Below, piece by piece: positions 33,445 to 36,632 of a DNA stretch of 64,000 nt; within the stretch, counting starts at the first letter, position 1, and each line of letters starts with the position of its first letter. The translations under genes and the position numbers were made by a program. This stretch comes from Pseudomonas putida (lineage in GTDB: Bacteria > Pseudomonadota > Gammaproteobacteria > Pseudomonadales > Pseudomonadaceae): positions 3,232,001 through 3,296,000 of the forward strand of contig NZ_CP029693.1 of assembly GCF_003228315.1 (NCBI RefSeq), given 5' to 3'. Under the pieces are notes generated by a model, which saw only the letters and a program-made list of their open reading frames with translations, was not told the origin of the DNA and did no database searches.

Positions 33445-34347
33445 TCAGAGGCGGCTGGACAGATCATCCAGGGCCGCGCGCAAATCAGTGAACTGGAAAG
33501 TGAAACCTGCCTTGAGCAAGCGAGCCGGCATGGCTCGCTGACCACCCAACAACAGCAACGACAATTCGCCCAACCCGACCTTCAGCGCAATCGCCGGCAT
33601 CGGCATGAACGCCGGACGGTGCAGCACGCTACCGAGGGTTTTGGCAAACTCGCGATTGCGCGCCGGCTTCGGTGCGCAGGCATTATAGGGACCGCTGGCT
33701 TCATTGCGATGCAGAAGAAAATCGATCAGGGCGATTTGATCGTCGATATGGATCCACGGCATCCACTGCCGACCATTGCCAATCGGCCCGCCCAGCCCCA
33801 GTTTGAACGGCAATAACAGCCGCGACAAAAAGCCGCCCTCGGCCGACAGCACCAGCCCGGTGCGGATGAGTATCACGCGAATGCCCAAGGCTTCGGCACG
33901 CTGGGCCGTTTCCTCCCAGGCAATACACAACTGACTGGCGAAATCGTCGATTACCGGTGGCGACGCCTCAGTCAGTTCACGCTCGCCGCCATCGCCATAC
34001 CAGCCCACGGCGGAACCGGAAATCATCAGCCGTGGTTTCTGCTCCCGGCTTTCGAGCCAGGCCAGCAGAGTTTCCGTCAGGGTAATGCGACTGCTCCATA
34101 ACAACGCTTTGCGCTTGTGCGTCCATGGACGATCGGCGATCGGTGCGCCGGCGAGATTGACGATGGCATCGACAGGCTCCTGCCCCACTTCCTCCAGTCG
34201 AGCGATTCCCCGCACTTGAGCACCACAGATTTTCGCCACTTTGACCGGCGTGCGACTCCACACAGTCAGCCGATGCCCCTGACTCAACCAGTGCCGACAG
34301 AGCTGACGTCCTATCAAACCAGTACCGCCGGTCAGCAATATGTGCAT
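33445..34347 (-). CDS. yfcH: TIGR01777 family NAD(P)-dependent epimerase (YfcH-like)
   Basis: 300-residue extended short-chain dehydrogenase with a Rossmann motif at the N terminus ([13 protein letters not shown]) and the typical [14 protein letters not shown] catalytic Tyr segment. The C-terminal DUF1731 part ([21 protein letters not shown], then [10 protein letters not shown]) completes the family pattern. Function unknown. Pairs with hemH. Confidence 0.88.
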
Positions 34348-34473
34348 GACTTCTTCCTCGCGTGGCGTTTTACCTTGATCACTAGTCTATTTTTATAAGC
34401 AAGGGATCTTTGATATCGGGCAGCCTCTGTGTTTAACAATAGGTCAAGCTGTCGGAACGAGAACGCGAGAAGT

Positions 34474-35535
<1,062 letters not shown>

Positions 35536-35540
35536 CCCTC

Positions 35541-35569
35541 TGTAGGGGCTGCCGAAGGCCGCTCCTACA
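35541..35569. repeat. Single REP-like hairpin
   Basis: TGTAGGGGCTGCCGAAGGCC starts the element, and the other arm ends CCTACA at 35569. It folds on itself with a GAA loop. It belongs to a different REP subtype and lies just after the renalase stop, where it may protect or end that transcript. Confidence 0.75.
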
Positions 35570-35575
35570 TAAACT

Positions 35576-35649
35576 TGTACAAAAAATTTGACTTGCACAC
35601 CTTTGAATCTATGATGAACCCAAGTTGTACAGATACCAAAAGCTGTACA
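35576..35649 (+). promoter_or_regulatory. Double PplR/LitR-type operator with sigma-70 promoter
   Basis: Direct repeat 1: TGTACA (35576-35581), 12 bases, TGCACA (35594-35599), one mismatch. Direct repeat 2: TGTACA (35626-35631), 12 bases, TGTACA (35644-35649), a perfect match to the PplR1 consensus. A good promoter lies within and beside repeat 1: TTGACT (35588-35593), 16 bases, TATGAT (35610-35615). So repeat 1 covers the -35 box and repeat 2 lies just after the start site. This should control the four- or five-gene light operon. Confidence 0.82.
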
Positions 35650-35672
35650 GGTTTTGATTCCGAGGTGCTTCC

Positions 35673-36632
35673 ATGCCCCTGCCCGCCACCAAACCGAAAA
35701 TCGCCATCAGCGCCTGCCTGATGGGCGCCGAGGTGCGCTACAACGGTGGACACAAGGCATCACGACTGTGCCGCCAAACACTTTCCGACTACTTCGATTT
35801 CGTGCCGGTCTGCCCGGAAGTGGCCATCGGCCTGGGCATTCCCCGTGAACCGATCCGGCTGGTGGGTGATGTGGACCAGCCCCAGGCAATCGGTACGGTC
35901 ACTCCCCAGCTCAACGTCACCCGGCCACTGGCCGAATACGGCCAACACATGGCGGTGGAACTGGACGATATCTGCGGCTACATCTTCATGCAGCAGTCAC
36001 CATCCTGTGGACTGGAGCGGGTCAAGGTCTACCACGCTAACGGCGCACTGCTGGACCGTGGCGGCCAGGGCATCTACGCCCGGGCCTTTTGCGCGTCGCG
36101 TCCCGATTTGCCGGTGGAGGAAGACGGACGGCTGAACGACCCGGTCCTGCGGGAAAACTTCCTCACCCGCGTATTCGCTTTCCACGCCTGGCAGCAACTG
36201 CTGCAAGAAGGTTTGAGCCGTCGCGGCCTCACCGACTTTCATTCGCGCTACAAGTACCTGCTGATGGCGCATAACCCGGTGCAATACAAAACACTGGGCA
36301 ACCTGCTGGGCAACATGGGCCGCACTGATCCACGAACACTGGGTCCGCGTTACTTCAGCGAACTGATGACAGCCCTGAAACGCTGCGCCACGCGAGGCAC
36401 GCACACCAACGTCCTGCAACACCTCAGCGGTTATCTGAAACAGGCGATCAGCGCCGAGGATAAACAGGAAGTGCAGCACGTCATTGGCCAGTATCGTCAC
36501 GGCATCGTGCCGCTGGTGGTGCCGCTGACGCTGCTCAAGCATCACTTTCGCCAACACCCTGATCCCTACATTGCGCAGCAGGTCTACCTGCAGCCGCACC
36601 CGGAAAACCTCAGTTTGCGAAACGCCATTTGA
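35673..36632 (+). CDS. TudS-like DUF523 desulfurase fused to DUF1722
   Basis: 319 residues. The N-terminal DUF523 domain (about 1-150) keeps cysteines at 15 (ISACLMG), 47 (PVCPEV) and 112 (QQSPSCGL), which in TudS hold a [4Fe-4S] cluster. TudS proteins remove sulfur from 2-thiouracil and related thiobases. The C-terminal DUF1722 domain (about 180-300, FHSRYKYLLMAHNPVQYKTLG) is a common fusion partner. Whether thiouracil is the real substrate here is unknown. First gene of the light operon; its stop overlaps the MerR start (TGATG). Confidence 0.8.
   Translation: MPLPATKPKIAISACLMGAEVRYNGGHKASRLCRQTLSDYFDFVPVCPEVAIGLGIPREPIRLVGDVDQPQAIGTVTPQLNVTRPLAEYGQHMAVELDDICGYIFMQQSPSCGLERVKVYHANGALLDRGGQGIYARAFCASRPDLPVEEDGRLNDPVLRENFLTRVFAFHAWQQLLQEGLSRRGLTDFHSRYKYLLMAHNPVQYKTLGNLLGNMGRTDPRTLGPRYFSELMTALKRCATRGTHTNVLQHLSGYLKQAISAEDKQEVQHVIGQYRHGIVPLVVPLTLLKHHFRQHPDPYIAQQVYLQPHPENLSLRNAI

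Follow-up and report, generated by a model that had tools for sequence, protein, structure and literature searches.

The promoter described here lies in a 64,000-nucleotide stretch of the genome of a Pseudomonas putida strain (hereafter, the window; the genome is of 6.85 Mb, in one contig) and is that of an apparent operon of close-packed genes on the + strand, coding for RudS, a MerR-family regulator of the LitR type, the DNA photolyase PhrB and a short-chain dehydrogenase (SDR). The features of the region, with the evidence for each, are:

34474-34497, + strand: third LitR-like site, TGTACC-N12-TGTACA (one mismatch), before the FAD-oxidoreductase gene at 34549
35576-35599, + strand: repeat 1 (Site 1), TGTACA-N12-TGCACA, putative LitR operator over the -35; one mismatch to TGTACA-N12-TGTACA; in the position of Site 1 of P6650 (PMC9758184)
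35588-35593, + strand: -35 hexamer TTGACT, within the N12 of repeat 1; from a sigma-70-like promoter search, conserved in relatives
35610-35615, + strand: -10 hexamer TATGAT, after a 16-bp spacer; from the same search; TTGACT-N16-TATGAT identical in P6650
35621-35625, + strand: expected transcription start, placed from the -10; the mapped start of P6650 is 48 bp before its ATG (PMC9758184)
35626-35649, + strand: repeat 2 (Site 2), TGTACA-N12-TGTACA, between the expected start and the ATG; zero mismatches; half-sites conserved, spacer much less so
35673-36632, + strand: RudS, a fusion of TudS (2-thiouracil desulfidase) and DUF1722, first gene; Pfam PF04463, PF08349
36632-37573, + strand: MerR-family class II LitR (PplR1/PmlR1 type), second gene; PF13411, PF00376, PF02607
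37575-39032, + strand: PhrB DNA photolyase; PF00875, PF03441
39033-39896, + strand: SDR, probably the fourth gene, the true start of which may be further in; PF00106

The MerR gene shares one base with the RudS stop codon, and upstream of the promoter lie the FAD-oxidoreductase gene, on the + strand, and genes for an epimerase and a ferrochelatase, on the - strand. The closest protein to RudS among the matches listed is 91% identical, and its named relatives are from Pseudomonas. The MerR protein joins a MerR helix-turn-helix (HTH) to a region similar to B12-binding_2 (PF02607), and at E up to 0.001 no other B12-binding domain was recognised in it; this is the make-up of a class II LitR, in which the cobalamin-binding domain is missing.

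A first-pass annotation of the DNA had described two operator repeats round one promoter, repeat 1 overlapping the -35 and repeat 2, a perfect match, just beyond the start, with the regulator gene second in the operon. The sequence is exactly as described: the N12 of repeat 1 contains TTGACT, TATGAT follows after 16 bases, repeat 2 begins 10 bp past the -10, and the start-to-start offset, from coordinates 35576 and 35626, is 50 bp. TTGACT-16-TATGAT is the sole sigma-70-like match in 34340-35700 (10 of 12 positions matching); since shuffled sequence of this region gives a mean of 0.4 such matches, the hexamers alone are weak evidence and prove little. The operators are far less expected by chance: with at most one mismatch to TGTACA-N12-TGTACA, three sites were found in the 64 kb, all within 34474-35649, against 0.02 expected from 100 dinucleotide shuffles (at up to three mismatches there are 26 sites against 9.5 expected, and sites known only at that level were given no weight). 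The class II LitR operator consensus, T(G/A)TACA-N12-TGTA(C/T)A, was derived from PplR1 of P. putida (Sumi 2020, as cited in PMC9758184); repeat 2 agrees with it exactly and repeat 1 departs from it at one base, in TGCACA.

The same design is found in P. mendocina NBRC 14162, in which the promoter P6650 was mapped in 2022 (PMC9758184). P6650 has TTGACT-N16-TATGAT; its Site 1 covers the -35, and its Site 2 falls between the start and the ATG. The operon that it heads is predicted to have nine genes, and the region holds pmlR1, phrB, an SDR gene, an FAD-oxidoreductase gene and ufaM (PMC9758184). The two promoters thus have in common their hexamers, spacer and placement of Sites 1 and 2, as well as the kinds of genes that follow, and both species carry a class II LitR and a short LOV protein in the genome. 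PME6650, the first gene of the P6650 operon, was called hypothetical (PMC9758184); from its operon and from PMC11417400, we infer that it is the RudS orthologue. The comparison is between different species, the window system being known from sequence and orthology being drawn from the description in PMC9758184; moreover, both P. mendocina sites are perfect TGTACA-N12-TGTACA, whereas repeat 1 of the window ends in TGCACA. A likeness is also seen to the PplR1-PplR3 regulon of P. putida KT2440, in the operator consensus and in the RudS-LitR-PhrB operon (Sumi 2020, as cited in PMC9758184; PMC11417400). In the accessible part of PMC11417400, RudS, LitR and PhrB are named as one LitR-controlled operon, with reference to the P. 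mendocina work.

In P. mendocina, binding at both sites, repression, and relief of repression by a LOV protein have been demonstrated (PMC9758184). PmlR2, a LitR paralogue encoded away from the operon, gives one continuous DNase I footprint on P6650, covering +32 to -45 of one strand and +37 to -54 of the other, and represses P6650 in run-off transcription in vitro; PmSB-LOV, a blue-light-activated short LOV protein, relieves this repression when lit (PMC9758184). Light induces pmlR1 roughly 6- to 10-fold, and phrB roughly 27- to 33-fold (PMC9758184). A two-hybrid interaction between LOV and repressor was seen both in the dark and in the light, and gel shift and BIAcore disagree on whether the lit LOV protein removes PmlR2 from DNA (PMC9758184). 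No further study of these operators was found among the matches listed in our literature search.

To see how widely the arrangement is kept, RudS loci were collected from 57 genomes, of which 47 (window included) were positive, 35 in the genus and 12 outside it. Among the 35 same-genus loci, window included, the offset of the pair is 49-51 bp in 27 (50 in 19, 49 in seven and 51 in one) and 45-46 bp in three (L030, at 45, L035 and L036), and one, L031, has a weak pair only, at 33 bp; in the remaining four (L013, L014, L034 and L048) no recognisable pair was found, L048 being a locus in which the protein match starts at residue 159, so that its promoter is not properly placed. Outside the genus, none of the 12 RudS loci has a pair. 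Of the 31 loci with a pair, window included, 25 have TTGACT at the corresponding position. A second sample, overlapping the first in part (L004/L105, L009/L176), consisted of 80 named close relatives: 78 have a pair at 49-51 bp, one has a pair only at 32 bp and L108 has none at our threshold, with TTGACT in the same place in 78 of 79 loci.

For the 61 close relatives with an offset of 50, the four half-sites are conserved, in order, at 95.4, 96.7, 99.7 and 98.1%, the -35 at 99.7% and the -10 at 96.2%; the 12-base spacer of Site 2 (59.8%), the stretch from the -10 to Site 2 (76.6%) and the rest of the Site 1 spacer (81.4%) are less conserved. Common descent contributes to these figures, since the stretch between Site 1 and the -10 is conserved at 94.3% and that just after Site 2 at 85.9%. 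In two species the pair upstream of RudS keeps its 50-bp offset (L028, 1386-1459; L029, 1402-1475) with ACTATT or AGTTCT in the place of the -35 and TGTGCT in that of the -10; with such sequences there, another sigma factor or an activator may act at the RudS promoter of these species. L035 and L036 have no clear -35 or -10 at the usual place, and a further pair of the rarer 45-46 bp class is present in L081 (G075).

We then asked how the distance between the two sites varies over the genus. A strict pair pattern, open to offsets of 32-62 bp, matched in 182 of 249 Pseudomonas genomes, whereas the reversed control pattern matched in none of the 249. The other 67 genomes lack a strict-pattern pair; the window genome is among them because its repeat 1 carries TGCACA, and the pattern is not exhaustive, since it also passes over the pair of L030, at 45 bp. 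Allowing a looser second half-site, offsets of 32-48 were found in three of the 249 genomes, all at 46, and offsets of 52-82 in six, all at 52. From these looser searches it follows, as a lower bound, that at least 173 of the 182 genomes have pairs solely at 49-51 bp. Among the matches listed, four genomes (G024, G148, G210 and G211) have two pairs each. Two pairs, both at an offset of 51, belong to a second type of double-operator promoter: L058 1501-1575 (G078, for which it is the sole match among those listed) and L073 1501-1575 (G148). In both, Site 1 has TTGACT or TTGACC at the corresponding position, with TAGACT or TAGGCT 16 bp on, and the promoter faces a gene for a SnoaL-like protein, followed by an SDR gene in L058 and with an FAD-oxidoreductase gene downstream in L073; on the other side of the L058 promoter are PAS/LOV-like and MerR genes. 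That a different operon has the same spacing suggests that the spacing is selected, though promoter geometry is also common to both. Relative to the accessible text of the published accounts, this quantified, near-fixed spacing between LitR sites across Pseudomonas is the new element of our analysis.

The first-pass annotation took the offset for nearly five helical turns and placed both repeats on one face of the DNA. With the B-DNA repeat taken as 10.5 bp per turn, offsets of 45, 46, 49, 50, 51 and 52 bp correspond to 4.29, 4.38, 4.67, 4.76, 4.86 and 4.95 turns, and of the observed offsets only 52 is near a whole number of turns. Thus, the site centres share a face only approximately (at 4.76 turns, they are about 86 degrees short of five), whereas the inner half-sites, 32 bp or 3.05 turns apart, are in register; half-sites within a site are 18 bp or 1.71 turns apart. 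For pairs at 45-46 bp, 27-28 bp separate the inner half-sites, which at 2.57-2.67 turns are out of register. The range of 45-52 bp therefore weakens the exact helical-phase argument from the offset. Cooperative repression, as suggested in the first-pass annotation, is nevertheless plausible, because the offset varies within narrow limits and because PmlR2, which elutes at about 226 kDa as a large oligomer, gives one continuous footprint (PMC9758184). A precedent is CarA, which binds as two dimers cooperatively over about 55 bp (PMC9304148). The fixed offset fits, without proving cooperativity, one fixed repressor-DNA assembly, and we infer that such an assembly holds both sites.

In its strongest form, which we hold tentatively and at slightly under even odds, this idea has a LitR oligomer of two or three dimers that must clamp all four half-sites as one composite element of fixed length, with the inner half-sites about three turns apart; the geometry (49-52 bp, with the rarer 45-46 bp class) would be kept genus-wide, and in two light operons, for a steep response to light. 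Nearly as probable is that the operators are independent, each blocking RNA polymerase alone (one at the -35, the other at or after the start) without contact between repressors, so that the offset reflects no more than the anchoring of each site to the promoter. In most loci the sites do have a fixed place relative to the -35 and -10, and in L058 and L073 the -35, the 16-bp spacer and the -10 are again at the same place. BIAcore shows PmlR2 binding to Site 2 on its own, and this binding is lost when both TGTACA of the site are changed (PMC9758184). Locus L030 retains its Site 2 although the site lies 5 bp nearer to the -10, which is unchanged. However, promoter anchoring accounts less readily for offsets of 49-51 bp in at least 173 of the 182 genomes when 32-62 were open and looser searches added only 46 and 52, for the 50 bp held by L028 and L029 despite their degenerate -35, or for protection that is continuous across both sites (PMC9758184). 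Over 31 loci, the distance between Site 2 and the first aligned RudS residue (which is not a mapped start codon) has a standard deviation of 7.3 bp, against 3.2 bp for the offset, the 33-bp outlier included. On the whole, the data separate a bridged repressor poorly from two promoter-anchored sites.

As to the protein that binds, a search of the genome with the window MerR (E up to 1e-5) hit two places, the window gene itself and one paralogue (locus L002, 1444-2403, + strand), with 39% identity in the genome search and 36% in a pairwise BLASTP. The paralogue matches MerR models and, weakly, HTH_Tnp_1, and does not reach the B12-binding_2 model at E up to 0.001. About 0.7 kb away is the gene for a single-domain PAS protein of 158 aa (L002, 3077-3553, - strand), which contains CRFLQ, presumably part of the LOV cysteine motif. 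By this motif, the protein is a putative short LOV, and the genome that holds the operon thus also has a litR paralogue close to a putative short LOV gene. The LOV1 protein of P. cichorii is reportedly the subject of a separate study (PMC11231323). KT2440 is reported to have three LitR and two short LOV proteins, as against the two LitR found here (Sumi 2020, as cited in PMC9758184).

The LitR/CarH ancestry of the regulator raises the question of whether a CarH-type vitamin B12 photoreceptor could read the light directly and bind at the window sites. The system resembles that of CarA and CarH at Pcrt, in Myxococcus and relatives, in having a MerR-type light repressor with an operator over the -35, and in Myxococcus the anti-repressor CarS sequesters the DNA-binding domain, like the LOV anti-repressor (PMC9304148). 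The window protein has a B12-binding_2 domain, the TnnACA core described for the repeats of CarH (PMC9304148) is contained in TGTACA, and in the accessible part of PMC11417400 these LitR regulators are called B12-dependent, against PMC9758184, in which B12 is reported as unnecessary in P. putida. CarA and CarH, however, act on tandem 11-bp repeats, CarH with B12 (PMC9304148), whereas in the window the promoter is flanked by two dyads with an offset of 50 bp. Here the half-sites of a dyad are 18 bp apart and the four fall at 0, 18, 50 and 68, with no 11-bp period, a cobalamin-binding domain was recognised in neither LitR, and the paralogue falls below even the B12-binding_2 model; we regard a CarH-type operator as very improbable.

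The MerR-family proteins MerR, CueR and SoxR activate transcription by binding and untwisting a long promoter spacer of 19-20 bp. That the window regulator, itself of this family, should bind between the -35 and -10 and activate in the same manner is the least probable reading of all, given a spacer of 16 bp, dyads that lie round the -35 and after the expected +1 rather than over the spacer, and repression by the P. mendocina homologue in vitro (PMC9758184).

The third LitR-like site, before the FAD-oxidoreductase gene, is conserved in its own right: 58 of 58 readable loci have a site with at most two mismatches at this position (110 loci, window included, 52 of which were not readable that far upstream). 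An additional TGTACA is present at 34519-34524, 27 bp after the third site. Half-site spacings of 18 then 27 differ from those of the RudS promoter and, for this reason, suggest a separate light promoter. A wide LitR regulon is unsupported: outside the window the genome has 16 places with at most one mismatch, and all nine of those examined are inside ORFs of at least 100 aa. In two of the nine, L101 (119 aa) and L099 (206 aa), the frame may not be a gene. A degenerate LitR site is reported for folM of P. mendocina (PMC9758184). The stretch of our genome with litR2 and the short LOV gene (L050) has no LitR site at up to two mismatches, so that a canonical folM site is not seen there.

We conclude, with a probability of about 0.9, that the window contains the light-inducible promoter of the RudS-LitR-PhrB-SDR operon and that this promoter carries two class II LitR operators, through which it would be repressed by LitR in the dark, with relief by a LOV protein in blue light. 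Without light, RNA polymerase would be kept off the promoter by a MerR repressor of the LitR type, bound at Site 1, where it masks the -35, and at Site 2, just past the start; this repressor would be the LitR of the operon, the paralogue encoded near the short LOV gene, or both. In blue light, the short LOV protein would bind the HTH domain of the repressor and cause its release, allowing photolyase, RudS and the regulator itself to be made. The sites, promoter, operon genes and sensor genes are all present here and the arrangement is conserved across the genus; by analogy with P. mendocina, the switch probably operates in the same way in this strain. Repression and autoregulation, as proposed in the first-pass annotation, agree with the footprint, the run-off repression and the light induction of pmlR1 in P. 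mendocina (PMC9758184). That proposal missed the light signal, and the MerR of the operon need not be the only or the main repressor, because the demonstrated repressor, PmlR2, is a paralogue encoded elsewhere.

The design is real, conserved and already described, and is ordinary for the genus; the first-pass annotation, made from sequence alone, arrived base for base at a promoter architecture that had been published. The near-fixed distance between LitR sites offers a ready test of a bridged, cooperative repressor as a light switch. P. putida RudS lowers 4-thiouridine in tRNA when expressed in E. coli, and a light-induced role has been proposed for it (PMC11417400). Through this operon, light would be tied both to DNA photorepair and to the removal of 4-thiouridine from tRNA, as is proposed in the accessible part of PMC11417400.
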